In this document: positions 12,998 to 64,000 of the stretch, piece after piece | Layout of the letters: each line of letters begins with the position of its first letter | How positions within the stretch are numbered: the first letter of the stretch is position 1 | Position numbers and translations under genes: made by a program | From: Candidatus Protoclostridium gallicola | GTDB lineage: Bacteria; Bacillota; Clostridia; Christensenellales; Pumilibacteraceae | DNA length: 64,000 nucleotides | Direction of reading: 5' to 3' | Assembly: GCA_904387375.1 (NCBI GenBank) | Contig: CAJFLE010000007.1 | Coordinates: 1-64,000 of the forward strand | The notes under the pieces: generated by a model | Told to the model about the DNA's origin: nothing | The model's input: the letters and a program-made list of their open reading frames with translations, nothing else | Database searches by the model: none

Positions 12998-13026
12998 TTG
13001 TCAACCGCCGCCTTGTGTGGTATACT
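12998..13026 (+). promoter_or_regulatory. Thioredoxin promoter giving a leaderless mRNA
   Basis: TTGTCA (12998-13003), 17-nt spacer, extended TGG-TATACT (13021-13026). The ATG at 13033 is 6 nt after the -10 box, so RNA should start at the A of the start codon. There is no ribosome site. Confidence 0.8.
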
Positions 13027-13032
13027 ACGCGT

Positions 13033-13335
13033 ATGGTTAAAGAACTCACTTACGACAATTTCAAAAGCGAAACGGCGGACGGCGTGTGCGTCCTGGATTT
13101 CTGGGCGTCCTGGTGCGGTCCCTGCCGCATGATGTCTCCCGTTATCGACGGTCTTGCCGAGAAACGCCCCGACATAAAATTCTTCAAAGTCAACGTGGAC
13201 GAGGAAGACAGGCTCGCCGCGGCTTTCCGCGTGGAGAGCATTCCCATGATCGTGGTCATGCGCGACGGCAAGGTGGCCGGCGGCACCGTGGGCTATATGC
13301 CCGAGGAAACGCTCGTTCGCGAACTGGGGATCTGA
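13033..13335 (+). CDS. trxA: Thioredoxin
   Basis: A 100-residue cytosolic dithiol oxidoreductase. The active site WCGPC holds Cys28 and Cys31, FWASWCGPC is the classical context, and the cis-Pro loop ESIPMIV follows near residue 73. The length is standard for a single thioredoxin domain. It overlaps the next gene by ATGA, so it is the first gene of an operon with the HAD phosphatase and leuS. Translation must begin without a leader if the promoter at 12998-13026 is used. Confidence 0.93.
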   Translation: MVKELTYDNFKSETADGVCVLDFWASWCGPCRMMSPVIDGLAEKRPDIKFFKVNVDEEDRLAAAFRVESIPMIVVMRDGKVAGGTVGYMPEETLVRELGI

Positions 13336-13895
13336 TGCGGGCATTCGACTTCGACCAGACGATATACGACGGATACAGCTACCGCGACTTCTGCTTTTTC
13401 GTGACCGCCCGCCGCCCCTGGCTGGCGTTCTATCTGCCCGTCATCATCGTCGTTGCGCTGCTTAAAGCGTGCCGGCTCATTTCCATGAAGCGCACGGTGG
13501 AGATCATTCTCTGGCCGTATCTGCGCTTTAAGAAAATCGACGAGTATATCGTCAAATTCTGGGACAAGAAGGAAAAGCGCATACAGCAGTGGTATAAAGA
13601 TATCCACAGCCCCGACGACCTCATCATAAGCGCGACCCCGTCCTTCTTCCTCGAAGAGATCTGCCGCCGCATAGGCGTGACCAATCTCATCGCGACCGAG
13701 ATCGACCGCAAGACGGGCAAGGTCGTGGACCCGTACTGCTACCGCGAAGGCAAGTGGCAGCGGTTTATCGCGCGCTACGGCGAGGACGCGAAACTTACCG
13801 AATATTATACGGACACCATGCGCGACGAATTCATGCTCGGAAAAGCCGAGCGCGGATTTTTCGTCAAGAACGGCAGGGTGACCCAGGTACACTGA
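13335..13895 (+). CDS. HAD-family hydrolase (phosphoserine-phosphatase-like)
   Basis: A 186-residue protein of the HAD superfamily. The nucleophile motif is at the very start ([10 protein letters not shown], Asp5 and Asp7), ISATPSFF supplies motif II, and a C-terminal DTMRDEFML replaces the usual GDSxxD, so the metal-binding motif is partly altered. A hydrophobic cap stretch (residues about 28-55) lies between motifs I and II, as in HAD-IB phosphatases. The substrate is unknown. It is translationally coupled to thioredoxin and ends one base before the leuS start codon. Confidence 0.8.
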
Positions 13896-13896
13896 T

Positions 13897-16293
13897 ATGG
13901 ACTTTCTGAAAATCGAAGAAAAATGGAAAAAGAGGTGGGAGGATGAAAAGCTCGACTCCTTCGACGTTTCGCGCGCGGATAAGAAAAAGTACGTGCTCGA
14001 AATGTTCTCGTACCCCTCGGGCGCGAACCTGCACCTCGGACATTGGTATAATTTCGGCCTGACCGACATCTACGCGCGCCTGCTCCGCATGCAGGGCTAC
14101 GAAGTGTTCCAGCCCATGGGCTTCGACGCGTTCGGTCTGCCCGCGGAGAACTACGCGATCAAAACGGGCATACATCCCAAGGATTCCACCGAAAAGAACA
14201 TAAAGACCATGGAGCGCCAGCTCCGCAATATGGGCGCGTCCTTCGACTGGGACTACGAGATCAAGACGTGCGAGCCGGAGTATTACAAGTGGACGCAGTG
14301 GCTTTTTTTGCAGCTGTACAAGCACGGCCTCGCCGAGGAAAAACTCGCGCCCGTCAACTGGTGCCCCTCCTGCAACACCGTCATCGCCAACGAACAGGTG
14401 GTGGACGGCTGCTGCGAGCGCTGCGGCTCCGTCGTCGAGCGCAGGGAAATGCGCCAGTGGTTTTTCAAGATAACGAAATACGCCGAGGAGCTGCTCTCCG
14501 GGCTGGACAAGATAGACTGGCCGGAAAAGACCAAGCTCATGCAGCGCAACTGGATAGGCAAATCGTCGGGCGGCGAAGTGGAATTCGACCTCGTGGGCGG
14601 CGGCTCGTTCAAGGTATTCACGACGCGCGCCGACACGCTGTTCGGCTGCTCGTACGTCGTGCTGGCGCCCGAGCACCCGCTCGTGGACAAGATCACGACG
14701 GCGGACAGAAAGGCAGACGTCGAGGAGTATAAGAAGCAGGCGGCGCAGCAGTCGGAGATCGACCGCACGTCCACAGTCAAGGAAAAAACGGGCGTGTTCA
14801 CGGGCGCGTATGCGATAAATCCCATCAACGGCCGCAAGGTTCCGGTGTGGGTGGCGGACTACGTCCTTGCGACCTACGGCACCGGCGCGGTCATGGCCGT
14901 GCCCTCGCACGACACGCGCGACTACGATTTCGCGACCAAATACGGCCTGCCCATAGAGCGCGTCGTCAGGAGCGCGGACGGCTCGCCGGACGACCTGCCG
15001 TTCACCGAATACGGCGTCGCCGTCAATTCCGGCTTCATTGACGGCATGAAGACGGCGGACGCGAAAAAGGCGGTGCTCAAAAAACTCGCCGAGCTGGGCA
15101 AGGGCGGGGAAAAGGTGACTTACCGCCTGCGCGACTGGTCGGTGTCCCGCCAGCGCTACTGGGGCGCGCCCATTCCCATGATACACTGCCCGCACTGCGG
15201 CGTGGTGCCAGTGCCCGAGGATCAGCTCCCCGTCGAGCTGCCTTACGACGTGGATTTCCATCCGAGCGGAAAGAGCCCGCTCGGCGCCAAAGAGAGTTAT
15301 ATAAACGTCAGGTGCCCGGTGTGCGGCGCGGACGCAAAGCGCGACCCCGACACCCTCGACACCTTCGTGTGCTCGAGCTGGTACTACCTGCGCTATCCCA
15401 ACGCAAAGCGCGCGGACGTCGCCTTCGATCCCGAGTGGACGGATAAGATGCTGCCCGTGGACACATACGTCGGCGGCGCCGAGCACGCGTGCATGCACCT
15501 GCTGTACTCGCGCTTCATCACCAAAGCGCTGCGCGACATGGGCTATCTGCACTTCGACGAGCCTTTCCTCAAACTCGTGCACCAGGGCGTCATACTCGGC
15601 CCCGACGGCAAGCGCATGAGCAAGACGCGCGGCAACATAATCAATCCCGACGACTACGTGTCCGTGTACGGCTCCGACGTGTTCAAGATGTATCTGTGCT
15701 TCGCCTTCTCGTACACCGAGGGCGGCCCGTTCTCCAAGGACGGCATACCCGCGGTCGCGAAGTACCTCGACCGCGTCGAGCGCATAGTGCTCAAAGCGGC
15801 GGGCGGCAGGGACGTAAAGCCCGCGGACTCCAAAAAGGCTGCGGCGCTGGAATACGACGTCAACTACGCGGCGAAGTGCTGCGCGGCCGACATAGGAAAC
15901 TTCTCGTTCAATACCGCGGTGGCGCGGCTCATGGAGCTGACCAATTCCATGTATAAATACGACGCCCCGGATTCCGCGCTGCTCGGCGCGGCGGAAACGC
16001 TCGTGAAGCTCATGGCGCCCATGGTTCCGCACATAGCCGAAGAACTGTGGGAGGCGCTGGGACACAAGACGAGCGTGCTGCGCGAAAAGTATCCCGAGTG
16101 CGACGAGAGCAAGCTGGTCAGGGCGGAAGTGGAAATCCCCGTGCAGCTGCTCGGCAAGCTCAAAGGCACGGTCATGCTCGCGCCCGACGCATCCGAGGAA
16201 GAGGCCTCGGCTGCCGCGCTCGCGCTGCTCGGTCTGACCGGAGCGAAAAAGATAATCTACAAGGCGGGCAGGATAATAAACGTCATCGCCTGA
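13897..16293 (+). CDS. leuS: Leucyl-tRNA synthetase
   Basis: This class I synthetase charges tRNA-Leu. The HIGH-type motif is HLGH (46-49) after SYPSGAN; the KMSKS-type motif is KRMSKTRGN (572-580). Between them lies the CP1 editing domain ([24 protein letters not shown]) and two zinc-ribbon-like CxxC pairs (WCPSC, CPHC). The C-terminal anticodon-binding helices end with a short domain. At 798 residues it is full length for the compact bacterial form. It begins 1 nt after the HAD stop codon and is followed by a terminator. Confidence 0.97.
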
Positions 16294-16312
16294 AAACAGC
16301 AGTCAGCTTTGG

Positions 16313-16336
16313 GGCGCCGGATTTCCGGCGCCTTTT
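16313..16336 (+). terminator. Terminator of the trx-HAD-leuS operon
   Basis: GGCGCCGG and CCGGCGCC pair around ATTT and are followed by TTTT. Confidence 0.88.
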
Positions 16337-16409
16337 CGCTGCGATAAAACGCAATTTGAAAAGTCATAAAAATAAGGGTTAAAAACTATTGAAAAGTCAT
16401 GCGGGGAAA

Positions 16410-16501
16410 CAAAACGAAAAGCCCGGGGCGATGCCTCGGGCTTTCCGTTGGTAAGATGATGGTGATGATGATTAGGAGGATTGTGGTGCCGTCCTATTTG
16501 T
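16410..16501 (-). ncRNA. Candidate small RNA, about 90 nt
   Basis: On the minus strand a TTTACA-N17-TATATT promoter (16536-16508) would start RNA near 16501. A hairpin at 16444-16418 (AAAGCCC...GGGCTTTT) followed by CGTTTTG ends it. No start codon gives an open frame inside. This is the only visible content of the 346-nt gap between leuS and the DJ-1 gene. The transcript would contain CATCATCACCATCAT, but not in a frame with a start codon. Confidence 0.4.
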
Positions 16502-16507
16502 AGCTAT

Positions 16508-16536
16508 AATATATCATATATTTCCGGATTTGTAAA
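16508..16536 (-). promoter_or_regulatory. Minus-strand promoter of the candidate small RNA
   Basis: TTTACA (16536-16531), 17-nt spacer, TATATT (16513-16508). Confidence 0.5.
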
Positions 16537-16639
16537 TACCTTTTGCACAAATTGACGTTTTTTTGACCTAAATTGCATTCCGCCGGTACGAAAGGCGCTT
16601 TTTTGAAAACGAAAGGCGCTTTTCACGCCTTCTCCCGCC

Positions 16640-17191
16640 TCAGACGCGGTCGTACTGAATGGCGCTTTTCACGTGCGCGGCGTTATCTTTCGTCGTCAGC
16701 AGCGCGAGCAGTTCCAGCCCGAGATCGAGCGCATAGCCCAGTCCGCGCGCCGTCGTGACGTTGCCGTCGGTGACCACGCCTTCGCCCGTGTACGCCGCCC
16801 CCGTAAGCTCGCCCTCGAATCCGGGGAAGCAGGTCGCGCGCCTGCCGATGAGCAGTCCCAGCCTGCCGAGCACCGAAGGCGCGGCGCATATCGCCGCCAG
16901 CCGCCGGCCCTTCCTCGCCGCGTCCGTGAGCATGTCCGCCAGCCTGCCGCACGCCGCGAGGTTGCGCGTGCCGGGCATGCCGCCGGGCAGGAACAGCGCG
17001 TCCGCGTCCGAGCAGTCGACGCCGCCGATGACCGCGTCGCATACGACGGTTATGCCGTGCGAGCTGACTATTTCCTTTTTGTCCGATACGGACACGAGAG
17101 TGACCTCGACGCCGCCGCGCACGAGCACGTCGGCCACCGCGAGGCATTCGGTTTCTTCCGTTCCGTCCGCCATAAATGCGTATACTTTCAT
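16640..17191 (-). CDS. DJ-1/PfpI family protein
   Basis: A 183-residue flavodoxin-like fold protein of the DJ-1/ThiJ/PfpI superfamily. The conserved nucleophile Cys102 sits in the elbow AAICAAPSVL, and an acidic residue near residue 15 and the FLPGGMPG loop complete the site. The close bacterial relatives are YajL-like; proposed roles include glyoxalase or chaperone activity in carbonyl or oxidative stress. AAGGAG lies 7 nt before the ATG. It follows the membrane protein gene by 35 nt on the same strand and is probably co-transcribed with it. Confidence 0.9.
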   Translation of the reverse strand: MKVYAFMADGTEETECLAVADVLVRGGVEVTLVSVSDKKEIVSSHGITVVCDAVIGGVDCSDADALFLPGGMPGTRNLAACGRLADMLTDAARKGRRLAAICAAPSVLGRLGLLIGRRATCFPGFEGELTGAAYTGEGVVTDGNVTTARGLGYALDLGLELLALLTTKDNAAHVKSAIQYDRV

Positions 17192-17226
17192 TCTATGCTC
17201 CTTCGGCGCGCTCCGGGCGCGCCCCT

Positions 17227-18066
17227 TTACGTTTTGTCGCTTTCCGCCGCTTCGGCCGCCGCCCCGGCTTCTTCCGGCTCCGCGGGTTCGGGCTTATCTC
17301 GATAGGTGTCCGCGTTGCTCTCCGCCAGCCTTTCCAGGAAGGTGACGCGGGGCGTGCGGAGTTTCAGCTCCTCGGTCACGCGCGCCGTCACCCACAGATA
17401 GATCGCGTATATGGGCGGCAGTCCGAGATTGGTTTCGACGAGCGAGTTGACGATCAGAACGTGCAGCTTGTCCGCGAAGCTTTCGAATCCGCTCGAACGT
17501 ATGCCGCCGACGAGCAGGGAGAACTCCCAGCCGAACTGCACCGCCACGCCTATCGCGAATAGCCACAGTATGCGGAAGCGGTGTTCCTTGTTTCTGCGGA
17601 ACAGGTTCCATATAATGACGGTCATGTACGACGCCGCGAGAATGAGCGCCATATATCCGTGATACGCGCCGGTCGTGCGCGCGATCGTGATCTGACCCAG
17701 TCCCGCGCCGAACGTGTCGTCGAGCATGGGGCAGGCGATCCACCACACGAATATGAGCACCGTCCATTCGGCAATGCGCCTGTCCTTTTTCAGGCACAGC
17801 CATATCCAGGCGAAGTTGGTTATGCCGTAACTCATCGACATCCACAGCAGCACCCAGAACATGTCGCCGCCCTCGATGGAGCGCGACCCGGTCAGCAGGT
17901 GAAATATGCCGTAATCGACGAGGAAGTACAGCACGCCGCCCGCGAGCGCGAACAGCAGAGTGAGCCGGCGTTTCGTCAGAAACAGCAGCAGGCACAGCAG
18001 GACGATGAACGCCGTGTCCATCCAGATGTAAAGCACGCCGAACGTGCGCTGAGCGATTATTTCCAT
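17227..18066 (-). CDS. Multi-pass membrane protein of unknown function
   Basis: 279 residues with about seven hydrophobic helices (starting at LYIWMDTAFIVLLCLLLF, then a LALAGGVLYFLV-type span, and ending near residue 235) and a charged Glu/Ala/Pro cytoplasmic tail of about 45 residues. The second to fourth spans are rich in Trp and aromatic residues. I recognise no transporter signature or catalytic motif and cannot assign a family. The start at 18066 is chosen for the AGGA ribosome site and the TTGCCT-N17-TATAAT promoter just upstream; the longer in-frame version would extend through that promoter. Operon partner of the DJ-1 gene. Confidence 0.8.
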   Translation of the reverse strand: MEIIAQRTFGVLYIWMDTAFIVLLCLLLFLTKRRLTLLFALAGGVLYFLVDYGIFHLLTGSRSIEGGDMFWVLLWMSMSYGITNFAWIWLCLKKDRRIAEWTVLIFVWWIACPMLDDTFGAGLGQITIARTTGAYHGYMALILAASYMTVIIWNLFRRNKEHRFRILWLFAIGVAVQFGWEFSLLVGGIRSSGFESFADKLHVLIVNSLVETNLGLPPIYAIYLWVTARVTEELKLRTPRVTFLERLAESNADTYRDKPEPAEPEEAGAAAEAAESDKT

Positions 18067-18084
18067 ATCTTTTTCCTCGGGTTT

Positions 18085-18113
18085 ATTATAACAGACGCGG
18101 GCGGAGAAGGCAA
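18085..18113 (-). promoter_or_regulatory. Promoter of the membrane protein/DJ-1 operon
   Basis: Minus strand TTGCCT (18113-18108), 17-nt spacer, TATAAT (18090-18085). Confidence 0.75.
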
Positions 18114-18166
18114 GATTTTTTCGCAAGGTGCCGAAAATCCGTGTTCCGCAAATACACACGAATCTG

Positions 18167-18195
18167 TTGTATAAACGGCACGAATGTGTTATAAT
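18167..18195 (+). promoter_or_regulatory. Upstream promoter P1 of the XRE cluster
   Basis: TTGTAT (18167-18172), 17-nt spacer, TATAAT (18190-18195). The operator-like block begins about 24 nt downstream. Confidence 0.65.
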
Positions 18196-18218
18196 TGAAT
18201 AAAATTGCGGCAAAAAGG

Positions 18219-18255
18219 AAACTTATGCAACCGCAATGTAAACTTTTGGAAACCG
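18219..18255 (+). promoter_or_regulatory. Operator-like block, copy 1
   Basis: A 37-nt block containing GCAACCGC, ATGTAAACTT and GGAAACCG at fixed distances. 32 of 37 positions match the block at 19450-19486 before the third XRE gene. It lies between promoters P1 and P2. Confidence 0.65.
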
Positions 18256-18262
18256 CACGGCA

Positions 18263-28386: not shown

Positions 28387-28416
28387 TTGACTTTGCCTCG
28401 CCCGTTGTGGTATACT
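28387..28416 (+). promoter_or_regulatory. P-type ATPase promoter giving a leaderless mRNA
   Basis: TTGACT (28387-28392), 18-nt spacer, extended -10 TGG-TATACT (28411-28416). The ATG at 28423 is 6 nt away, at the expected RNA start. Confidence 0.8.
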
Positions 28417-28422: not shown

Positions 28423-31101
28423 ATGGCCGACAACAATTCCAAAGGCAGCAGCACGCTGTCCACCATAGATCTGCTCGATTACAGCGCGTCGAAGCGCCGC
28501 AGGTTCTCGCGTCCGCGCAGACGCGGCGTCGATCCCGCGCGCGCCGAAAGGTTCGCGCCCGACGTCGAGACCGGGCTTATGTCCGATCAGGTGACCAAGC
28601 GCACCGAGGACGGGCTCGTCAACGCGGCGAGCCGCACCGTGGGCAGGTCGTACGCGCGCATTATTTTTTCCAATCTGTTCACGTACCTCAACCTGCTCAT
28701 TCTCGTCATATTCATAGCCATGATGCTCGTCGTGGACATCAGCAAGGACTGGAGCAAGTTCCTGTTCGTCGTCATCGTGTCCGCGAACACAATTATAGGC
28801 ATAGTGCTCGAAATCAAGTCGAAAATGACCATCGACCGCTTGAAGCTCGTCACCGCTCCGACGGCGATAGTCGTGCGCGACGGCGCCACCAAGGCCATAC
28901 CCGTGCGCGAAGTCGTGCTCGACGACATCATATATCTCGAATCGGGCAAGCAGATCTGCGCCGACTCGGTCATCGTCAGGGGCGAATGCGAGGTCAACGA
29001 ATCCATGCTGACGGGCGAGAGCGTGCCCGTGCACAAAGGCCCGGGCGACGTCATTCTGTCCGGCTCGTTCATGACCTCGGGCAACTGCTACGCGCGCGTG
29101 GACAGGATAGGCGACGACAACTACGTCGAAACGCTGTCGTCGTACGCGAAGAAGTATAAAAAACCCAAGAGCGAGCTCAACAACGCCATAAATCTCGTCA
29201 TCAAAGTCGTGTCCGTCATCATGATACCCATCGCGATTCTCATGATATACCGCACGTACATGAATCTCGTCGATACGATGCCTCTCGACCCGTGGGGACG
29301 GGGAAGCGGACATCTGTTCTATGAGATAATCACGACCGTGAGCGGCGCGCTCATCGGCATGATACCGTCGGGCATGTTCCTGCTGACCAGCGTCGCGCTC
29401 GCGACCTCGGTCATAAGGCTGGGCAAGCGGCACACGCTGGTGCAGAATATCTATTGCATAGAGATGCTGGCGCGCGTGGACGTGCTCTGTCTGGACAAGA
29501 CGGGCACGATCACAGACGGCTCCATGATAGTGAAGAACGTCATTCCCATAAAGGGCGCGGATACGGGCGGGTTCACCGTCGGCGACATAATAGGCTCCAT
29601 GCTGTCGGCGACCGAGGATAATAACCAGACCGCAATCGCGCTTGCCGACAAGTTCGGCTATAACCTGAAATTCCGGCCGACCACCGTGCTGCCATTCTCG
29701 TCAGCGCGCAAGCTTTCGGCGGTCACGTTCGAGGGCATGGGCACGTATATGCTCGGCGCGCCCGAGTTCGTGCTCAGCGACATGGGCGTGCGCATAAGAA
29801 AACTCGTCGAGGACAACGCCTCGCAGGGCTTCCGCGTGATGTGCCTCGCGCATTCGCCCGCCGACATCCGCGGCGAGCGTCTGCCCGCCGTGCGCCGTCC
29901 GCTCTGCCTCATAATCATAGAGGACCATATCCGCGGCGACGCGGTGGACACCATAAGGTGGTTCAAGGAGAACGACGTCGCAGTCAAGGTCATATCCGGC
30001 GACAACCCGCTCACCGTTTCCGAGGTGGCGCGCCGCGTGGGCGTGCAGGACGCCGACAAGTATATCTCGCTCGAAGGGCTGTCCGCGCACGAGGTCATGG
30101 AAGCGGCGAACAAATACACGGTTTTCGGACGCGTCACGCCCGAACAGAAGAGTATTCTCGTCAAGAGCATGAAGGCGAAGGGGCATACCGTGGCCATGAC
30201 GGGCGACGGCGTCAACGACATTCTCGCCATGCGCCAGGCGGACTGCGCCGTATCCATAGCGTCGGGAGCGGAGGCCGCGCGCAACGTCGCGCACCTCGTG
30301 CTCATGGACAACAACTTCACGTCCATGCCCGACGTCGTCGTGGAAGGCCGCCGCGTCATAAACAACATAGCCAAGTCGTCGTCGCTGTACCTGATGAAAA
30401 CGATGATGACGGTGCTGCTGTCCATAGCCGCGCTCGCGCTCGGCACGTCGTATTTCTTCACGACGAACATGACGCTGATGTACGAGATCTTCATCACGGC
30501 GATACCGTCCTTCTTCCTCGCGCTGCAGACGAACAAGGACAGGGTGCAGGGACGGTTCCTTACCAACATGCTGAAAAACGCTTTCCCCGGCGGCATAACG
30601 CTGTCGCTCGCGGTCATGGCGGTATACGTATACTGGATTTTTGCCGGCACGGGCGAATACGGCGCGCAGTACAACGCCGAATTCCTGTCCATGGTCACGC
30701 TGACCGTGACCTATGCGGGCTACTTCCTGCTCGTGCGGCTGGCGCAGCCTTACAACGCATACCGCGTCGTGCTCGTCGCCTTCACTTTCGCGCTCTGTCT
30801 GTTCGGCACCATAGTGCTGGGCGAATCGACGTTCGGCATAGATTTCGACGCGCTGACGCTGACCGACTGGTTCTTCATGAGCACGGTCGTGCTGGCCGCT
30901 TACGGCGTGGTCAGCGTGCTGTTTGCCGCCGTGAACAAGATAAACATAGCGACGCAGCCGCTCGAAGTCGAGGCCGCCGCCGAAGAACAGGCGAGGCTGG
31001 AAGAACAGAAGATGCTCGAAGAGCTGCGCGAGCAGCGCCGTCAGGCCGAAGCGATAGACGCGGACGAACCCGAACCTCCGCCCGTGCAGAAAATCGGATA
31101 A
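28423..31101 (+). CDS. Cation-transporting P-type ATPase
   Basis: 892 residues, polytopic membrane protein. DKTGT contains the phosphorylated Asp358, TGES (197-200) is the dephosphorylation loop of the A domain, and TGDGVND (593-599) is the hinge motif. The fourth membrane helix reads MIPSGMFLL instead of PEGLP, as in the Exp7-like branch of bacterial P2-like pumps, so the ion is uncertain. After the last helix there is a charged Glu/Arg-rich tail of about 45 residues. I chose the ATG at 28423 (MADNNSKG) since an in-frame TTG at 28387 is the -35 box of its own promoter. No ribosome site exists, consistent with leaderless translation. Confidence 0.92.
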   Translation: MADNNSKGSSTLSTIDLLDYSASKRRRFSRPRRRGVDPARAERFAPDVETGLMSDQVTKRTEDGLVNAASRTVGRSYARIIFSNLFTYLNLLILVIFIAMMLVVDISKDWSKFLFVVIVSANTIIGIVLEIKSKMTIDRLKLVTAPTAIVVRDGATKAIPVREVVLDDIIYLESGKQICADSVIVRGECEVNESMLTGESVPVHKGPGDVILSGSFMTSGNCYARVDRIGDDNYVETLSSYAKKYKKPKSELNNAINLVIKVVSVIMIPIAILMIYRTYMNLVDTMPLDPWGRGSGHLFYEIITTVSGALIGMIPSGMFLLTSVALATSVIRLGKRHTLVQNIYCIEMLARVDVLCLDKTGTITDGSMIVKNVIPIKGADTGGFTVGDIIGSMLSATEDNNQTAIALADKFGYNLKFRPTTVLPFSSARKLSAVTFEGMGTYMLGAPEFVLSDMGVRIRKLVEDNASQGFRVMCLAHSPADIRGERLPAVRRPLCLIIIEDHIRGDAVDTIRWFKENDVAVKVISGDNPLTVSEVARRVGVQDADKYISLEGLSAHEVMEAANKYTVFGRVTPEQKSILVKSMKAKGHTVAMTGDGVNDILAMRQADCAVSIASGAEAARNVAHLVLMDNNFTSMPDVVVEGRRVINNIAKSSSLYLMKTMMTVLLSIAALALGTSYFFTTNMTLMYEIFITAIPSFFLALQTNKDRVQGRFLTNMLKNAFPGGITLSLAVMAVYVYWIFAGTGEYGAQYNAEFLSMVTLTVTYAGYFLLVRLAQPYNAYRVVLVAFTFALCLFGTIVLGESTFGIDFDALTLTDWFFMSTVVLAAYGVVSVLFAAVNKINIATQPLEVEAAAEEQARLEEQKMLEELREQRRQAEAIDADEPEPPPVQKIG

Positions 31102-34873: not shown

Positions 34874-34902
34874 TTGCGTGCGGCGTGGAAAAGATGTATA
34901 AT
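34874..34902 (+). promoter_or_regulatory. Radical SAM gene promoter giving a leaderless mRNA
   Basis: TTGCGT (34874-34879), 17-nt spacer, TATAAT (34897-34902) preceded by TG. The ATG at 34910 is 7 nt after the box. Confidence 0.78.
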
Positions 34903-34909: not shown

Positions 34910-35800
34910 ATGTCATTCGATTATTCACATTGCGAAATGTGTCCGCGGCGGTGCGGCGCAGACAGACGGACGGGCGCAGGCTACTGCGGCTGCGGCGACG
35001 GAGCCGCGGTCGCAAAGACCATGCTGCACATGTGGGAAGAACCTCCCGTAAGCGGCGCGCGGGGCAGCGGCGCGGTGTTCTTTTCGGGCTGTAATCTGCG
35101 CTGCATATACTGCCAGAACCGCGATATCTCCTTTTCCGTTTCCGGCCGCCGCATGAGCCGCGAAGAGCTGGCGGACTCGTTCCTTTCGCTGCGCGACGCG
35201 GGCGCGCACAACATAAATCTCGTCACCGCAACGCCGTATCTGCCCGACGTGGCGGACGCGCTCGGCATTGCGCGCCGCCGCGGGCTTGACCTGCCCGTCG
35301 TGTACAACACCGGCGGCTACGAGCTGCCCGAAGCGGTGGAAGCGCTGTCGCCGTACGTCGACGTATGGCTGCCCGATTTCAAATACGCCTCCTCCGCTCT
35401 CGCGGCGAAATACTCCTCCGCGCCCGACTATCCCGCCGTTGCCGAAGAGGCGATAGACCGCATGGTGCGGCTCGCCGGCCCGCCCGTAATCGAGAACGGA
35501 CTTATCCGCCGCGGCGTGATCGTGCGCCACCTCGTGCTGCCGGGCTGCCGCGCCGACAGTCTGCTCGTCGTGCGCCGCATTGCGGAAAAATGGGGCGGGG
35601 ATGTGAAGCTGTCGCTCATGCGGCAGTACACGCCGGACTTTGCACCGCCCGGCTGCGGGCTTAACCGCCGCGTGACCGCGTTCGAGTATAACTCCGTGCT
35701 GGAAGAGGCGCTGCGCCTGGGACTGGACGGCTGGTTCCAGGACGCGGATTCCGCCACGAAAGCGTATACGCCGGATTTCACAAATAATGTGAAAAGTTGA
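34910..35800 (+). CDS. Radical SAM protein, PflX-like (COG1313 type)
   Basis: 296 residues. The [4Fe-4S] cluster motif CNLRCIYC (Cys61, Cys65, Cys68) follows SG, and an extra N-terminal Cys set (CEMCPRRCG...GYCGCG) matches the PflX family, relatives of pyruvate-formate-lyase activating enzymes whose substrates are unknown. HLVLPG and a C-terminal QYTPDF complete the family pattern. The initiation codon lies at the predicted RNA start, and there is no ribosome site. Confidence 0.88.
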   Translation: MSFDYSHCEMCPRRCGADRRTGAGYCGCGDGAAVAKTMLHMWEEPPVSGARGSGAVFFSGCNLRCIYCQNRDISFSVSGRRMSREELADSFLSLRDAGAHNINLVTATPYLPDVADALGIARRRGLDLPVVYNTGGYELPEAVEALSPYVDVWLPDFKYASSALAAKYSSAPDYPAVAEEAIDRMVRLAGPPVIENGLIRRGVIVRHLVLPGCRADSLLVVRRIAEKWGGDVKLSLMRQYTPDFAPPGCGLNRRVTAFEYNSVLEEALRLGLDGWFQDADSATKAYTPDFTNNVKS

Positions 35801-36870: not shown

Positions 36871-36903
36871 AAAGCTCCGGCAGATTTTGCCGGAGCTTTT
36901 TTT
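36871..36903 (+). terminator. Terminator of the lipoprotein gene
   Basis: AAAGCTCCGGCA pairs with TGCCGGAGCTTT around GATTT, followed by T7. Confidence 0.93.
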
Positions 36904-36935
36904 CGCGGCGGCCGTTTAATTATTCCGCTCGCGGG

Positions 36936-36941
36936 TATAAT
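36936..36941 (+). promoter_or_regulatory. -10 box 7 nt before the next start codon
   Basis: TATAAT (36936-36941) with ATG at 36949. No good -35 is seen at 16-18 nt (CGTTTA at best), so confidence is lower than for the other leaderless starts. Confidence 0.55.
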
Positions 36942-36948
36942 TACGGAT

Positions 36949-37611
36949 ATGAAAAACACGGACAGGGAAGTTATGTATCTGGTGGGAGACAGCGCGGAAA
37001 AGCGCAGACTCATGCGCAGCGGCGGTCAGGGCGTCGCCCGCGCGCTCAACGACGAGGTGTCGGCGGTGTGCCGGGTGACGGGCAGGGACTATTACGTCGT
37101 CGGCAAGCATCCGTTCGCGGCGTTTACGGTGTGGCAGTATATGCGCTACGAGCGCGCGCTGCTGTCCGCAACCCCGCTGAACAAAAAGGAAGCCGCCGCG
37201 CTGCTGAAAAAGATGGGCGTGCGCGTAAGCCTGCGCCGCAGGTTCGGCAGTCTGTCGTACGCCGAGCGCCGGCTGGTGACCGCCGCCTCGCGCATAACCG
37301 GCCGCACGTCCACCGTCGCGCTCAACCTCGACGGCGCGCCATATTCCCGCCGACTGAAAAAACAGCTCCGCCGCGCGGTAAAACGGCTGCGTTCGTCGTA
37401 TGCGCTGTGGATAGCCGTCACAGACAGCAGGCTGGTGCCGCGCCGCGCGGGCGTCGTGGAAGTGAAGCCGAACACGTTGTACTCGCACGAGGGCAGGACG
37501 TACCGCTCCTTCGTGGTGACGCGCTCGTCGCTGCTCGCCCGTCTGCGCCGCTGCTTCGCCGAACCGGTGCCCGTAGAGGCGGGCAAGGTCGTGTGCGTGA
37601 CCAGCCGCTGA
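36949..37611 (+). CDS. Unknown protein resembling a degenerate ABC ATPase
   Basis: 220 residues, very basic, without signal peptide or membrane helix. No Walker A is present. Yet the second half follows ABC ATPase order: TVWQYMRYERALL then EAAALLKKMGV (helical subdomain), FGSLSYAERRLVTAASRI (in place of LSGGQRQRV), TVALNLDG (Walker B position), and ALWIAVTDSRL (H-loop position with Asp for His). It could be a decayed ATPase used as a scaffold or DNA- or RNA-binding protein. This relation is inferred by eye only. It is a single gene with its own terminator. Confidence 0.7.
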   Translation: MKNTDREVMYLVGDSAEKRRLMRSGGQGVARALNDEVSAVCRVTGRDYYVVGKHPFAAFTVWQYMRYERALLSATPLNKKEAAALLKKMGVRVSLRRRFGSLSYAERRLVTAASRITGRTSTVALNLDGAPYSRRLKKQLRRAVKRLRSSYALWIAVTDSRLVPRRAGVVEVKPNTLYSHEGRTYRSFVVTRSSLLARLRRCFAEPVPVEAGKVVCVTSR

Positions 37612-51468: not shown

Positions 51469-51497
51469 TTGACATAAGCCGGCGAATATAGTAAAAT
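51469..51497 (+). promoter_or_regulatory. J-domain gene promoter giving a leaderless mRNA
   Basis: TTGACA (51469-51474), 17-nt spacer, TAAAAT (51492-51497). The GTG start codon at 51504 is 6 nt after the box. Confidence 0.8.
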
Positions 51498-51503: not shown

Positions 51504-52031
51504 GTGAAAAACTATTACGCCACACTCGGAATAACCAGGGACGCGAGCGACGAGGACATAAAACTCGCATACCGTACGCTCGCAAGACGGTACCATCCCG
51601 ATCTCGGCGGGGAAGAGAACGCGCCCCGCTTCGAGGAGATCAACGAGGCGTACCGGTTTCTCAGCGACCGCATAAAACGCATGGGGCTGGACGCAGAGCT
51701 CGCAGCGTCGGGCGTGACGGCAAATCTCCGTCCGCATGCGAATCCGCAGCCGCGGAGCCGTTCCGTAAGTCAGGCTGCCGGATCGGAAACCGAACGCCGG
51801 GAGCAGACCGCATGCGCGCGTCCGCAAGCCCGGGACTGCGCCCCTGTCGACGGGGCGGGGTATACGGCGGAGCTGGAAGCGCAGATAGCCGCATACGAGG
51901 CGGTGATAGAATCGCTGACCAAAGTGTCGTATGCGCCGCCGCGCCGCGACCTGTCCCCGGCAAGCCTTGCCGCGCTTCTGCGCGTCAACCGTGAAAAGCG
52001 CGCCGTGCTCGCCCGCAAAACGACAAAATAA
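51504..52031 (+). CDS. J-domain (DnaJ-like) protein
   Basis: 175 residues. Residues 1-55 are a J domain with the HPD motif (RYHPDLGG) and helix IV (FEEINEAYRFLSD), which would stimulate an Hsp70 ATPase. The rest has no zinc-finger or client-binding domains; it is a polar linker with Arg and Pro followed by a helix near 118-137 and a basic end. So it is a specialised co-chaperone, not DnaJ itself. GTG is the start (MKNYYATLGI), located at the expected RNA 5' end. Confidence 0.87.
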   Translation: MKNYYATLGITRDASDEDIKLAYRTLARRYHPDLGGEENAPRFEEINEAYRFLSDRIKRMGLDAELAASGVTANLRPHANPQPRSRSVSQAAGSETERREQTACARPQARDCAPVDGAGYTAELEAQIAAYEAVIESLTKVSYAPPRRDLSPASLAALLRVNREKRAVLARKTTK

Positions 52032-54685: not shown

Positions 54686-54714
54686 TTGCAAAAGGCGGTG
54701 CAATCTGCTATAAT
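54686..54714 (+). promoter_or_regulatory. mrnC operon promoter giving a leaderless mRNA
   Basis: TTGCAA (54686-54691), 17-nt spacer, extended -10 TGC-TATAAT (54709-54714). The ATG at 54721 is 6 nt after the box. Confidence 0.82.
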
Positions 54715-54720: not shown

Positions 54721-55104
54721 ATGCTGGAACAAAAAGCCGTGCAACTCAATCCGCTTACGCTCGCTTTCGTGGGCGACGGCGTGTACAATCTCTTCGTCAG
54801 GACGTACGCCGTCGAGCATATGGACGTCAAGGCAAGCCGCATGAACGCGTATTGCCGCGACTTTGTCAAGGCGACGGCGCAGGCGAAAGCGTACCGCGCC
54901 ATAGAGGGCGAGCTGACCGAAACGGAAGCGGCGGTGGCGCACCGCGCGCGCAACTCACACCCGTACAACAAGGCGAAGAACGCGTCGTCGGCGGACTATA
55001 TGCACGCGACCGCGCTGGAAGCGGTCATCGGCTATCTGTACGTCAGCGGCCAGCGCGAACGGCTGGAATATATAGAAAAAAGAGCGATGGAGGAAAGCGT
55101 ATGA
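54721..55104 (+). CDS. mrnC: Mini-ribonuclease 3
   Basis: 127 residues. It has the RNase III catalytic domain without the double-stranded-RNA-binding domain: LAFVGDGVYNLFVR holds the first acidic site, and DYMHATALEAVIGYLYVSG the second. In Bacillus this enzyme matures 23S rRNA. The four-gene order mrnC-thyA-folA-rlmB is compact; rlmB follows mrnC in many Bacillota, here with thyA and folA between them. Leaderless start. Confidence 0.93.
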   Translation: MLEQKAVQLNPLTLAFVGDGVYNLFVRTYAVEHMDVKASRMNAYCRDFVKATAQAKAYRAIEGELTETEAAVAHRARNSHPYNKAKNASSADYMHATALEAVIGYLYVSGQRERLEYIEKRAMEESV

Positions 55105-59665: not shown

Positions 59666-59709
59666 GAGCCACCTTCGCTGTTATTATCTTTCCTCTTTTT
59701 CCCCGATTT

Positions 59710-59739
59710 ATTGTACTATAAAACAGAGAAAGATTGCAA
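59710..59739 (-). promoter_or_regulatory. Promoter of pyk
   Basis: Minus strand TTGCAA (59739-59734), 18-nt spacer, TACAAT (59715-59710). Confidence 0.7.
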
Positions 59740-59783
59740 GCGTTTTGGCGGTGCGCTCCGCCCGAGCCTGAGCATAAAACCGT

Positions 59784-59812
59784 TGACATACCCGCCGAAT
59801 GGGTGTAAAATA
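59784..59812 (+). promoter_or_regulatory. Promoter of the alpha/beta-hydrolase gene
   Basis: TTGACA (59784-59789), 17-nt spacer, TAAAAT (59807-59812). Confidence 0.82.
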
Positions 59813-59880
59813 TCATATAACGGCGATCGGCGTTTAACGGCCCGGCCGCAGGGAAATACTATCCATCGCAAGGACGACCT

Positions 59881-60855
59881 ATGAAGAAAACGGGACTGCT
59901 GCTTATACACGGATTTCTCACATGCACCGACGACTGGGATCTGTTTGTCCCCGAGCTGGAAAAACTGTACGACGGCGTCGTGCTTTTCAAACAGCCCGGC
60001 CACGAACGCGCCGACGGCAAACCGCATTACCGCGACTTCACCGCCGATGCCGCGTTTTCCGAGCTCGGCCGCACGCTGCGGGAAATGGAAGAAGAATACG
60101 AAACGATCGACATCATGGGGCATTCCATGGGCGGCGGCATGGCGCTGTACGCGGCGGCCGAGGCGAAAAACGTCCGCCGTACGGTGCTGCTTTCGCCGGC
60201 GATAAAGTATCCGCGCCCCGGCGCGTTCGCACGGCATAACTCGGCGGTAAGCAAATTGCAGAATATGTCCAGGCACTGCCGGGATACCGAACTCGCCGAA
60301 GCTCTCGCCGCGGCCGCGTCCAACGTCCGCACGACGTTCAAAGAGTCGGTGGACATGTTCTTAAAGCGTCTGCTGCCCAACTGGAGTCCGCATAACCTCA
60401 TGACGTTCGCGCGCATAATGGGCAGGGCGGAGAAGTATGCCGACAAGGTGGAATGCCCGCTCGCCGTACTGTGGGGAGAACTGGACGAGTTCATACCCCG
60501 CCGTGCGGCAGATATAATACTCGCAAAGGCCGGGAGCCGCGAAAAGACGTTTATATCCTATGCGGATATGGGTCATGCCATGATGTATCTCGGCGACGTG
60601 CGCGCGCTGCTGCGCGACGTTATATGTCTGCTGTCCGGCGGCGACATCTGCGCCGTCGAAACGGAGAAGGGAGAACAGCGCACGGTGCGCCGCATGACCG
60701 AAGAGGCGGAAGGCGTACGCACCGTGACGGTGACCGACCGTATCGTAAAGACAAAAGAAGGCGTGACCGCAGAGCACGGGCGCTGCGAGGATTTCGAACC
60801 TTTCGGCGCGGAACCGGCCGTTACACAGCCGGCGGATAATAAGCGGGCGCACTGA
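59881..60855 (+). CDS. Alpha/beta-hydrolase (carboxylesterase/lysophospholipase-like)
   Basis: 324 residues. LLIHGFLT gives the oxyanion site, GHSMGGG the nucleophile Ser82, WGELDEFIP the acid and YADMGHAMMY the catalytic His. From about 250 on the protein continues with a polar, Glu/Arg/Thr-rich region of 70 residues that is not part of the fold and looks unstructured. The substrate is unknown. CAAGGACG before ATG is the ribosome site. Divergent from pyk. Confidence 0.88.
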   Translation: MKKTGLLLIHGFLTCTDDWDLFVPELEKLYDGVVLFKQPGHERADGKPHYRDFTADAAFSELGRTLREMEEEYETIDIMGHSMGGGMALYAAAEAKNVRRTVLLSPAIKYPRPGAFARHNSAVSKLQNMSRHCRDTELAEALAAAASNVRTTFKESVDMFLKRLLPNWSPHNLMTFARIMGRAEKYADKVECPLAVLWGELDEFIPRRAADIILAKAGSREKTFISYADMGHAMMYLGDVRALLRDVICLLSGGDICAVETEKGEQRTVRRMTEEAEGVRTVTVTDRIVKTKEGVTAEHGRCEDFEPFGAEPAVTQPADNKRAH

Positions 60856-60925
60856 TATTTATCATCAATTTATAATCGCGCGTTATAATTACACCATATA
60901 ACAGGCAGCAAAGGGAGGTTAAACA

Positions 60926-61774
60926 ATGAGCAAAACGATAATCACCAGCGACAGCACCGCGGATCTCGATTACCTGTTTGCGGAGCGGAACATCCCCGTC
61001 ATGCCGCTTACCGTACTGCTCGGCGAGCGCGAGGGGCTGGACGGCGTGGAAATAACGCCGAAGGACATTTACGAATATTTCGACAAAACCAGGACTACGC
61101 CCAAGACGGCGGCGGTCACGCCCGAACGGTATTACGAATTTTTCAAAAAGTATACCGACGAGGGCTGCGAGATCGTGCACTTCACCATCTCGTCTGACAT
61201 GAGTTCGTGCTACGACAACGCCGTGCAGGCGGCGCGGCAGTGCGGCGGCGTATACGTCATCGACTCGCTCAACCTGTCCACGGGCATAGGCCTTCAGGTG
61301 CTTTACGCAGACGACCTCGCAAAGGAGGGACTGAACGCGAAAACGATAGCCGAGAAGGTGAACGCCCGCCGCGCGGCGGTGCAGGCGTCCTTCGTCGTGG
61401 ACACCATGTCCTTCCTCTACCGCGGCGGAAGATGCAGCGGCATATCCGCGTTCGTCGCCAGCGTGCTCAAAATCCATCCGTCCATTTTCGTGACGGGCGG
61501 CAAGATGGTCGTGGGCAAAAAATATATGGGCACGACGGACAAGGCGATCATGAAATACGTGTCCGACACCATGGCGGCGTTCACGCACCCGGACAAGAAA
61601 TATTTCTTCGTCACTCACTCGTCCGCTTCGCCGCAGACGGTGGAAAAAGTCAAGGAAGCCGTGCGCGCCGTATACCCCGACGCTAATATAATAGAAACAG
61701 TCGCCGGCTCTACCGTCACGTCGCACTGCGGTAAAGGCACGCTGGGCATACTGTACTATAACGACGCGGAGTGA
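60926..61774 (+). CDS. DegV-family fatty-acid-binding protein, paralogue 1
   Basis: 282 residues. TIITSDSTADL at the start, TTPKTAAVTPERYYEFF, FTISSDMSSCYDNA, DSLNLSTGIG, VVDTMSFLYRGGRCSG and TVTSHCGKGTLG are the DegV pattern. FakB-type members bind a fatty acid and present it to the kinase FakA; no fakA is in this window. GGGAGG lies 8 nt before ATG. It is followed by a homologous gene 122 nt on. Confidence 0.93.
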   Translation: MSKTIITSDSTADLDYLFAERNIPVMPLTVLLGEREGLDGVEITPKDIYEYFDKTRTTPKTAAVTPERYYEFFKKYTDEGCEIVHFTISSDMSSCYDNAVQAARQCGGVYVIDSLNLSTGIGLQVLYADDLAKEGLNAKTIAEKVNARRAAVQASFVVDTMSFLYRGGRCSGISAFVASVLKIHPSIFVTGGKMVVGKKYMGTTDKAIMKYVSDTMAAFTHPDKKYFFVTHSSASPQTVEKVKEAVRAVYPDANIIETVAGSTVTSHCGKGTLGILYYNDAE

Positions 61775-61778
61775 CATT

Positions 61779-61800
61779 TTCCGCGCGGATTACCGCGGAA
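61779..61800 (+). terminator. Short hairpin after the first DegV gene
   Basis: TTCCGCG (61779-61785) pairs with CGCGGAA (61794-61800), followed by GTTTATG. The T run is poor. Confidence 0.4.
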
Positions 61801-61896
61801 GTTTATGATTAGTTAATAACGGCGCGCCCGTACGTAAACATTTATTTATGTCGCTTTGATAAACTCTTGCACATTGACATACGCAAGGAGCTGTTT

Positions 61897-62751
61897 ATGA
61901 AAACGACCATAATAACGGACAGCGCGTCCGATCTCGGCGGCGAGGGCCGCGGCATAATTGTCATTCCGCTCACCGTACTGCTCGGCGAGCGCGAGGGCGC
62001 GGACGGTGAAATAACGCCCGACGACATTTACGCGTATTTCGCGGAAACGGGCAGGACGCCCAAAACCGCCGCGATATCTCCGGAGCGGTTCGAAAGGGTA
62101 TTTGCCGAAGTGACGGCGGACGGCGGGGAAGCCGTATACATATCCATAGCGTCGACGATGAGCGCGTGCTACGGCAACGCGCGGCTGGCGGCGCAGAATT
62201 ATCCCGGCGTGCGCGTCGTCGATTCGGGCTGGCTGTCGGGCGGAATCGCGCTGCTCGCGCTTTACGCCGAAGAGCTGGCCGGAAGAGGACTGGGCGCGGA
62301 CGAAATCGCCGCCCGTGTGGAGGCGAGGAAGAGCGCGGTCAGGCTGTCGCTCATCGTGGATACGATGACTTTTCTCCACCGCGGAGGCAGGTGCGGCTCG
62401 CTCGCCGCGTTCGTGGCGGGCGTGCTCAAAATCCGCCCGTCCATCGTGATGACGGACGGGAAGCTGACGGTGGGGCGCAAGTACATCGGTCCGGCGCGCA
62501 GGGCGCTGACAAAATACGCGGCGGACGCTCTCGCCGCGGCGGACAACATAGATCCCGCATATTTTTATCTCGTTCATACCTCGCCCAAACGCGAGATACT
62601 CGACGAGACCGAAGCGCTCATCCGCGCGGCGCGGCCGGACGCGAACATAATCGAACGCGTCGCCGGCGCGACCATAACGTCGCACACCGGCAGAGGCGGA
62701 ATAGCGCTCATATATTTCAACGACGGAGGCAATCCCCATACAGATGAGTAA
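61897..62751 (+). CDS. DegV-family fatty-acid-binding protein, paralogue 2
   Basis: 284 residues, same motifs as the first copy (TIITDSASDL, TPKTAAISPERF, SIASTMSACYGNA, VDTMTFLHRGGRCGS, TITSHTGRGGI) but clearly diverged, so the two probably bind different acyl chains. The start at 61897 follows AAGGAG by 7 nt. Its 3' end overlaps tsaD by 8 bases, so the two are translated together. Confidence 0.93.
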   Translation: MKTTIITDSASDLGGEGRGIIVIPLTVLLGEREGADGEITPDDIYAYFAETGRTPKTAAISPERFERVFAEVTADGGEAVYISIASTMSACYGNARLAAQNYPGVRVVDSGWLSGGIALLALYAEELAGRGLGADEIAARVEARKSAVRLSLIVDTMTFLHRGGRCGSLAAFVAGVLKIRPSIVMTDGKLTVGRKYIGPARRALTKYAADALAAADNIDPAYFYLVHTSPKREILDETEALIRAARPDANIIERVAGATITSHTGRGGIALIYFNDGGNPHTDE

Positions 62752-63751
62752 AGACGTACTGGTACTCGGAATAGAATCGTCCTGCGACGAAACGTCCGCT
62801 GCCGTGGTAAGAAACGGCAGGGAATGTCTGTCCAACGTCATCGCCAGCCAGATCGACATACACCGCCGCTTCGGCGGCGTCGTGCCCGAAATAGCGGGGC
62901 GCAACCACCTGCTCGCCGTCATGCCCGTCATCGACGAGGCGCTGTCAAAAGCGGGCGTGAAAAAAGAGGAAATCGACGCCGTCGCCGTGACGTACGGCGC
63001 CGGGCTGATCGGCTGTCTTCTCGTCGGCGTGTCCGCGGCAAAGGCGTTCGCATACGCCATAGACCGTCCCCTCGTCAAAGTCAATCACATCGAAGGGCAT
63101 ATAGCCGCGAACTTCATCGCCTTTCCGGAGCTGCAGCCGCCTTTCCTTTCTCTCGTCGCGAGCGGCGGCCATACGAGCATCGTCGAAGTGTCCGGCTACT
63201 GCGATATGAAACCTGTGAGCGCGACGATGGACGACGCGATAGGCGAGGCGTTCGACAAGGTCGCGCGCATACTCGGTCTGCCCTATCCCGGCGGCCCGGA
63301 AATAGACCGCAGGGCGAAAGAGGGCAGGGCGGTCATACGGTTCTGCCCCAATCTGCACGCGCGCGGCGATCTCGCATACTCGTTCTCGGGACTGAAAACC
63401 GCCGTCGTCAACTACGTGCACAACCTTACGCAGCGCGGGGAAGAGATACCCGTAAACGACGTCTGCGCGTCCTTTACCGCAGAGGCGGTGGGCTACCTCG
63501 TGGACACGTTCATGGAATGCGTGCGCAGGCGCGGCGTGAAGAGCGCGGCGCTCGCGGGCGGAGTGGCGGCAAACTCGTATCTGCGCGCCCGGCTGGGCGA
63601 GGCGTGCGCGGCCGAGGGCGTGAAGCTGTTCGTGCCCCCTCCCGTGCTGTGCACCGACAACGCCGCAATGATAGCGGCGCGCGGCTATTTCTCCTTTGCC
63701 GGGGGCAGGGACATAGCCGACCTGTCGCTCAACGCCGTTTCCAATCTTTGA
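62744..63751 (+). CDS. tsaD: tRNA N6-adenosine threonylcarbamoyltransferase TsaD
   Basis: 335 residues, ASKHA-fold enzyme that makes t6A at position 37 of ANN-decoding tRNAs with TsaB, TsaE and TsaC. The metal-binding HIEGH (His115, His119) follows VN, and IESSCDETSAAVV, SGGHTSI and GLKTAVVNYV are conserved. The usual PExASRxH reads PEIAGRNH, a small change. The gene overlaps the DegV gene upstream. tsaB and tsaE are not in this window. Confidence 0.97.
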   Translation: MSKDVLVLGIESSCDETSAAVVRNGRECLSNVIASQIDIHRRFGGVVPEIAGRNHLLAVMPVIDEALSKAGVKKEEIDAVAVTYGAGLIGCLLVGVSAAKAFAYAIDRPLVKVNHIEGHIAANFIAFPELQPPFLSLVASGGHTSIVEVSGYCDMKPVSATMDDAIGEAFDKVARILGLPYPGGPEIDRRAKEGRAVIRFCPNLHARGDLAYSFSGLKTAVVNYVHNLTQRGEEIPVNDVCASFTAEAVGYLVDTFMECVRRRGVKSAALAGGVAANSYLRARLGEACAAEGVKLFVPPPVLCTDNAAMIAARGYFSFAGGRDIADLSLNAVSNL

Positions 63752-63782
63752 CGAATAATACGCGGCGCGGGCGCATTTGCGC

Positions 63783-63811
63783 TTGCGCTGAAGTTTTTTT
63801 TATGCTATACT
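63783..63811 (+). promoter_or_regulatory. Decarboxylase gene promoter giving a leaderless mRNA
   Basis: TTGCGC (63783-63788), 17-nt spacer, extended -10 TGC-TATACT (63806-63811). The ATG at 63819 is 7 nt after the box. Confidence 0.75.
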
Positions 63812-63818
63812 TTATCGG

Positions 63819-64000
63819 ATGACCGTTCGGGAATACATCGAAAACTATTCGCCGGCCTATCGCGGGCACACGCCCGGGCACAAGGGAAAGGCGGACAGGC
63901 GGGATATCACCGAGATACTCGACGAGTTTCCCGCCGATCTCGTGAAAAATAGCGAGAAGGCTGCGGGGTTCGTCTACGGCGCGCCCTATTTCCGTTTTCT
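63819..64000 (+). CDS. Orn/Lys/Arg decarboxylase-like protein, N-terminal part (runs off the window)
   Basis: Only the first 60 codons are present. MTVREYIENYSPAYRGHTPGHKGK matches the start of PLP-dependent fold-type-I decarboxylases of the SpeA/Cad group in Bacillota, in which HTPGHKG is highly conserved. The substrate (arginine, lysine or ornithine) cannot be read from this part. No ribosome site; the start codon is at the predicted RNA start. Confidence 0.75.
   Translation, partial: MTVREYIENYSPAYRGHTPGHKGKADRRDITEILDEFPADLVKNSEKAAGFVYGAPYFRF

Follow-up and report, generated by a model that had tools for sequence, protein, structure and literature searches.

Candidatus Protoclostridium gallicola, a member of the order Christensenellales in the Clostridia, probably carries (we put this at roughly 85%, on the strength of sequence patterns) sigma-70-type promoters 6 (or 7) nucleotides (nt) before the start codon in a few percent of its genes, the messenger RNAs (mRNAs) of which would be leaderless, with the bare start codon being bound in place of a Shine-Dalgarno (SD) site. 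It is very likely that its lineage uses such leaderless mRNAs for about 2–4% of genes beside SD initiation. The analysis started from one stretch of DNA, here called the window (64,000 nt, positions 1 to 64,000 of contig CAJFLE010000007.1, i.e., contig 7 of 28 in a genome of 1.80 Mb; the window has 55.8% G+C). In this window, the original prediction had named seven genes with a -10 box close to the start codon: those for a thioredoxin, a P-type ATPase, a PflX-like protein, a protein starting at 36949, a J-domain protein, the Mini-III ribonuclease (mrnC), and a decarboxylase.

We call gap the number of nt between the last base of the -10 box and the start codon. Our gene-based sample of the host genome consisted of the window and 400 kb taken as 20 stretches (464 kb together), in which a simple codon-usage caller gave 379 genes, the starts being chosen without any upstream signal. 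A -10-like hexamer, i.e., TANNNT in which the three middle bases agree with TAA at two positions or more, was counted by its distance from the start. Among 368 host genes, such hexamers are found 14 times at gap 6 and 8 times at gap 7, vs 0 to 4 times at each other gap below 20. The same count over in-frame ATGs near gene starts gave 15 (gap 6) and 9 (gap 7), vs 0 and 4 (gap 6) and 1 and 1 (gap 7) in the other two frames. With GTG included, the 464 kb hold 26 candidates at gaps 6–7, for a background of 4.8 per gap (Poisson P 9e-6). Over the whole genome, TATAMT-N6-ATG gave 79 matches vs 20 for the reversed pattern, and TATAAT-N6/7-ATG gave 100 matches vs 39 at N12/13 (binomial P 1.2e-7). The wider pattern TATAAT-N1..30-ATG occurs at 733 places.

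The same comparison, N6/7 vs N12/13 behind TATAAT, was made in 61 genomes, i.e., 14 of the genus (host included), 23 of other genera of the family, and 24 of other families of the order, and was extended to 148 genomes beyond the order (3 of the class and 145 of the phylum). The pooled ratio falls from 1.90 in the genus to 1.57 in the other genera of the family, 1.15 in the other families of the order, and 0.98 over the 148 class and phylum genomes. An excess at P<0.01 is seen in 27 of the 37 family genomes and in 2 of the 148 beyond the order (G099 and G129). The excess of G099 was rejected as non-specific, the reversed control pattern giving 100 matches vs 76; in G129 the counts are 13 vs 2.

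We also used a gene-based promoter score combining -35, spacer, and -10, with a threshold taken from shuffled upstream sequence, and ran it on the 464 kb of the host and on 400 kb of each other genome; it brings out the signal more sharply than the pattern count. G193 and G085, the two outgroups, both at phylum level, were chosen for their long contigs, G030 (same family, another genus) for its few contigs, G052 (another family of the order) for its significant pattern excess, and G050 (a third family) despite a non-significant excess. In the host, 14 genes match at gap 6, 1 at gap 5, and 8 at gap 7, all other gaps up to 19 having 1–6, and gaps 5–8 together hold 25 matches vs 10.7 expected (net 4.0% of genes). 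In G030, 13 genes match at gap 6, 0 at gap 5, and 1 at gap 7 (gaps 5–8: 16 vs 6.4; net 3.5%). G052 gave 13, 1, and 0 at gaps 6, 5, and 7 (16 vs 5.3; net 3.6%) and G050 gave 10, 1, and 2 (13 vs 7.5; net 1.7%). By the same score, G193 has no match at gaps 5, 6, or 7 (gaps 5–8: 0 vs 2.4; net -0.8%), and G085 has 2 at gap 6, 1 at gap 5, and 0 at gap 7 (3 vs 2.1; net 0.3%). Matches at gaps 20–60, which we take as the leadered class, number 116 in the host, 71 in G030, 78 in G052, 85 in G050, 67 in G193, and 54 in G085. The original prediction had expected a peak in the genome-wide distances from -10 to start codon; counted with controls and in relatives, this peak is present at gap 6, and in the host also at gap 7. 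Since it is found in the host and its relatives and in neither of the two phylum outgroups, regular leaderless use is the best reading of these data.

TATAAT-like words near an ATG are expected in any genome by chance and base composition, and with about 4.8 of them per gap in the 464 kb sample, single candidates may be nothing else. However, no excess appears in the controls at other distances, in the out-of-frame controls, or in 146 of the 148 more distant genomes. We thus reject chance and composition as the source of the excess on the distance, frame, and phylum controls, and leave this explanation a probability close to nil.

The candidates at gaps 6–7 also have the character of promoters. 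As controls for the box features, we took the starts with a -10 at gaps 10–19 (53 in the host and 27 in G030). A TTG at -35 distance (16–18 nt) is present in 17 of the 26 host candidates vs 9 of the 53 controls (Fisher P 3e-5), and in 12/18 vs 7/27 in G030 (Fisher P 0.008). A pyrimidine at position -1 precedes the start codon in 21/26 host candidates vs 25/53 controls (Fisher P 0.004) and in 17/18 vs 16/27 in G030 (Fisher P 0.009). A pyrimidine at -1 followed by a purine at +1 is the usual preference for a transcription start. GTG starts are found in 4 of the 26 host candidates, 5 of the 18 candidates of G030, and 15 of the 53 host controls; being no commoner in candidates than in host controls, they say little on start-codon preference.

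The SD signal is mostly missing from these genes. Of the 29 host genes in which a -10 stands at gap 4–9, 26 lack an SD word of at least 4 bases, vs 113 of the remaining 339 host genes; 24 of these 26 SD-less genes have a wide upstream gap. Among the ATG candidates of the host, 2 of 24 contain a 4-base SD word. One candidate of G030 (L139) has a true AGGAGG and is false. The anti-SD of the 16S rRNA (L051) is intact (CACCTCCTTT; reading GGATCACCTCCTTT), and SD initiation thus coexists with the predicted leaderless mode. It could be imagined that the genes also have upstream promoters and ribosome-binding sites, the near promoter being secondary. This is how Clostridium phytofermentans has been described, the potentially leaderless genes of which generally had another upstream transcription start site and a typical ribosome-binding site (PMC5171806). 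In the host, however, the lack of a ribosome-binding site in 26 of the 29 genes means that a transcript from further upstream would not be SD-led either, and we hold such an arrangement to be improbable.

Under the preferred reading, a sigma-70-type promoter with a gap of 6 would place the transcription start on the start codon itself, which we infer from the normal spacing between -10 and +1. The first base transcribed by RNA polymerase would be the A or G of this codon; the mRNA so made, having no leader, would present a bare 5'-terminal start codon to which the ribosome could bind in place of an SD site. Leaderless mRNAs elsewhere initiate via 70S ribosomes or via an IF2-assisted 30S complex; by likeness to them, one of these routes may be used here. 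Most genes stay SD-led, and for single genes the mode varies from one relative to another.

In the window, the seven -10 boxes, their gaps of 6–7 nt, and the start codons were all found by reading the sequence. A TTG-type -35 hexamer with a spacer of 17–18 nt stands before six of the seven genes, as had been proposed; at 36949, a TTG-type -35 was looked for and not found. At none of the seven sites can an SD be made out by eye at a usable distance, again in agreement with what had been said of them. All boxes below come from sequence reading, three of the -10 boxes also from the pattern search; all features lie on the + strand.

12998..13003, + strand: -35 of the thioredoxin gene, TTGTCA, 17 nt spacer
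13021..13026, + strand: -10 of the thioredoxin gene, TATACT, 6 nt from the ATG (also pattern search)
13033..13335, + strand: thioredoxin gene, ATG start, predicted leaderless here (Pfam PF00085 from residue 2; homologs)
28387..28392, + strand: -35 of the P-type ATPase gene, TTGACT, 18 nt spacer
28411..28416, + strand: -10 of the P-type ATPase gene, TATACT, 6 nt from the ATG (also pattern search)
28423..31101, + strand: P-type ATPase gene, ATG start, predicted leaderless (Pfam E1-E2_ATPase; start backed by the codon-score step alone)
34874..34879, + strand: -35 of the PflX-like gene, TTGCGT, 17 nt spacer
34897..34902, + strand: -10 of the PflX-like gene, TATAAT, 7 nt from the ATG
34910..35800, + strand: PflX-like radical SAM gene, ATG start, predicted leaderless (Pfam radical SAM; homologs)
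36936..36941, + strand: -10-like TATAAT of the gene at 36949, 7 nt from the ATG, with no TTG -35
36949..37611, + strand: gene of unknown family, called ABC-like in the original prediction, ATG start, the weakest of the seven (relatives)
51469..51474, + strand: -35 of the J-domain gene, TTGACA (full), 17 nt spacer
51492..51497, + strand: -10 of the J-domain gene, TAAAAT, 6 nt from the GTG
51504..52031, + strand: J-domain gene, starting with GTG, predicted leaderless here (Pfam DnaJ domain beginning at residue 3; N-terminus aligns with homologs)
54686..54691, + strand: -35 of mrnC, TTGCAA, 17 nt spacer
54709..54714, + strand: -10 of mrnC, TATAAT, 6 nt from the ATG (also pattern search)
54721..55104, + strand: mrnC, ATG start, Mini-III ribonuclease by the name given in the original prediction (Pfam Ribonuclease_3, the RNase III domain; homologs)
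63783..63788, + strand: -35 of the decarboxylase gene, TTGCGC, 17 nt spacer
63806..63811, + strand: -10 of the decarboxylase gene, TATACT, 7 nt from the ATG
63819..64000, + strand, continuing beyond the window: Orn/Lys/Arg decarboxylase-family gene, ATG start, predicted leaderless (Pfam OKR_DC_1)

Completed from the continuation of the contig (L124), the decarboxylase has 337 amino acids. The 36949 protein has no Pfam or NCBIfam match, and Rfam at gathering scores gave no match in the window. Among the 50 genes called in the window, 6 in-frame starts have a -10 at gap 6–7, where the background in the other 400 kb would predict 1.26. Five of the six are on the list above; mrnC and the decarboxylase gene were missed by the gene caller and added by hand to complete the seven. 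The sixth start, at 12418 on the minus strand, belongs to a cytidylate kinase-like gene that lacks a -35; an AT-rich stretch (TATTATAATATAT) immediately precedes its ATG, and the gene is a doubtful further candidate for a leaderless mRNA.

Homolog N-termini back five of the seven window starts (13033, 34910, 36949, 51504, and 54721), and at the P-type ATPase the codon score rises from -0.67 ahead of the ATG to 0.37 past it. These starts bear on the idea that the true starts lie further downstream with an SD of their own, the ATG near the -10 being unused. Start choice from sequence is uncertain, the coding-only caller put the PflX-like start 111 nt downstream, and PflX-like homologs in other genera begin 3–5 codons later. 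On the other side, homologs can be aligned as far as the proposed starts or close to them, the surplus of gap-6 ATGs falls in the reading frame (15 vs 0 and 4 in the other two), and some Pfam domains begin at residues 1–6, so that later starts would truncate these proteins. Such early domains are found in 7 of 28 candidate proteins (4 of the 28 having no match), in 2 of 6 window proteins, and in both SmpBs. We therefore give downstream starts very little credence.

For five of the window genes (thioredoxin, PflX-like, 36949, J-domain, and mrnC), we compared the homologs, scoring the leaderless arrangement when a -10 lies 5–8 nt before the start, with gaps 9–20 as control; the counts include the host. 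For mrnC, the arrangement is found in 21 of 30 family genomes, 4 being SD-led and 5 neither, and the control gave 13 matches over the 12 control gaps, i.e., 4.3 per 4 gaps. Three of the mrnC genes counted as neither (L228-L230) have weaker boxes 6–8 nt ahead of a GTG, as judged by eye. For the PflX-like gene, after exclusion of the weak homologs from L113 on, the arrangement is present in 10 of 19 family orthologs (SD-led 4, neither 5; control 0.7 per 4 gaps), among which the flanking sequence diverges widely to the eye. Among more distant mrnC homologs, L062 (Lachnospiraceae) and L063 (Clostridium sp.) have no clear -10 directly before the gene in 55 nt. The mrnC arrangement may thus be limited to the relatives of the window.

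The mrnC relatives also speak to another possibility, namely that the -10 boxes are real and the leaders very short (about 1–4 nt), the mRNAs being read without SD and not strictly leaderless. In 10 named relatives, the host excluded, the gap is 6 in 5, 8 in 3, and 10 in 2 (the last by eye), and with a fixed start distance, gaps of 6, 8, and 10 would leave 0, 2, or 4 nt; the host smpB likewise has a TATAAT at gap 8. However, the spike stands exactly at 6 in four genomes (14, 13, 13, and 10 genes) with no spread over 8–10, and a pyrimidine at -1 is what one would see if transcription began on the start codon itself. Very short leaders seem to us unlikely.

Several results weigh against regular leaderless use. 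The excess is modest: with 10.7 of the 25 host promoter-score matches at gaps 5–8 expected from background (smpB being counted twice among the 25), about 4 in 10 host matches may be chance. In the order, the pattern signal is patchy, 3 of the 24 other-family genomes having a pattern excess at P<0.01, and G050 by gene reaches no better than P 0.041. One of the 13 genus members besides the host, G011, has no excess (53 vs 55). Among the ATG candidates of G030, 7 of 15, the false L139 among them, contain an SD-like word of at least 4 bases. Finally, three of the window genes have mostly SD-led homologs: the arrangement is found in 4 of 30 for thioredoxin (one a doubtful TTG at gap 5; SD-led 24, neither 2), in 2 of 28 usable for the J-domain gene (2 of 30 dropped; SD-led 19, neither 7), the homologs of which are mostly longer DnaJ-type proteins and not orthologs, and in 2 of 16 usable for the 36949 gene (2 of 18 dropped; SD-led 12, neither 2). 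The seven genes are thus unequal: mrnC and the PflX-like gene keep the arrangement in much of the family, and most homologs of thioredoxin, J-domain, and 36949 lack it; since homologs differ in mode, the window set is partly local.

The candidates at gaps 6–7 number 44 (26 in the host and 18 in G030), and any such list is partly background. We searched 27 of them and the decarboxylase with Pfam, and 5 window genes and two SmpBs besides. Named domains among the host candidates are Lon, LepA, MgsA/RarA-type AAA, NAD kinase, RecD2, Ham1, RsmA/KsgA, and thiamin pyrophosphokinase, and among those of G030, TilS, a DNA polymerase III clamp-loader subunit, PHP, and RsmA. The rsmA gene has gap 6 in two genera (the host and G030), and smpB has gap 6 in G050, i.e., in another family, while the host smpB has an overlapping TAATAT at gap 6 beside its TATAAT at gap 8. 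A bias toward RNA and ribosome genes is an impression, because it comes from naming with no comparison set. We can propose tentatively, with more doubt than confidence, that a whole uncultured Clostridia order has fixed a second, leaderless mode, in which a -10 exactly 6 nt from the start would replace the SD gene by gene and would favor genes of RNA and ribosome upkeep (mrnC, rsmA, smpB, lepA, and tilS), the products of which might still be made if normal initiation were impaired.

The original prediction had suggested that the lineage uses leaderless mRNAs regularly, for the first genes of operons. The gap-6 peak, common to relatives and missing in the two phylum outgroups, supports the regular use; the place at the head of operons found no support, host candidates being no more isolated upstream than controls. 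Of the 26 host candidates, 20 have either a divergent neighbor or 40 nt or more between them and the gene upstream, and so do 43 of the 53 controls; candidates are promoter-proximal by construction. A co-directional gene follows within 40 nt downstream in 5/26 host candidates vs 28/53 controls, and in 8/18 candidates vs 5/27 controls in G030.

Leaderless initiation itself is a known type. In Mycobacterium tuberculosis, mRNAs reportedly begin with the start codon, and genes with and without a leader are mixed; the host resembles it in having leadered and predicted leaderless genes in one genome. Leaderless genes had been thought rare in Bacillota, a view to be qualified, since Zheng et al. 2011 (PMC3160421) predicted them for 56 out of 209 genomes of Firmicutes, mainly in Lactobacillales and Mycoplasma, with a table value for Firmicutes of 4.2 (2.4, 16.6) percent. 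Our case is like their TA-led genes, in which the first T of TANNNT lies about 12 nt upstream of the start (a gap of about 6), and like theirs it consists in an excess over shuffled sequence taken as leaderless. Unlike theirs, it concerns a Clostridia order and TATAAT-like boxes with a TTG -35; a word search for 'Clostridi' found nothing in the text of PMC3160421 at hand. In Actinobacteria, about 20% of genes (19.2) are leaderless (PMC3160421), as compared with about 2–4% here, where they are predicted from sequence. For Clostridia, 4% of one class of transcription start sites is potentially leaderless in C. phytofermentans (PMC5171806), C. difficile has 15 potentially leaderless genes (PMC7438776), and in C. 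acetobutylicum RNA-seq gave 212 leaderless transcripts for genes whose proteins were detected, with shifts under stress in some of them (PMC4533764). These three are, like our lineage, members of the Clostridia, and some 5' ends at start codons are reported for them; the accessible parts of these papers do not mention a conserved promoter-to-start spacing for them. The parts of PMC9581028 and PMC5397173 at hand name no Clostridia, and in a limited literature search we found no report of leaderless genes for this lineage.

Hence, what appears new is the regular use of a known initiation type in a Clostridia order, and more precisely the conservation of the gap and the way in which relatives differ gene by gene. 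If this is true, a Clostridia lineage, probably the whole order, joins the groups with regular leaderless mRNAs, and mrnC, the PflX-like gene, and thioredoxin form a natural series, the orthologs of which are SD-led or leaderless among relatives. Because orthologs differ in mode, the cost and the cause of the switch could be tested. In these genomes, gene finders relying on an SD may place starts wrongly.

Two minor observations can be added. Upstream of the 36949 gene, relatives from other genera (L198, L200-L203, L206, and L209) share GTATAAA and, downstream of it, CAATAAT or CGATAAT, the two separated by about 15 nt; in most of them an SD comes next. This pair is unlike sigma-70 and reminiscent, as we presume, of forespore sigma promoters; the 36949 gene is possibly read by another sigma factor. 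In the host genus (window 36900-36949, L196, and L197), a box stands 7–8 nt ahead of the 36949-type start. On contig 1 of G000, one 34-base string, from TATAATCGGC to GATATG, occurs at both 26745 and 266892, i.e., at a distance of 240 kb, and suggests a repeated element or a gene copy.

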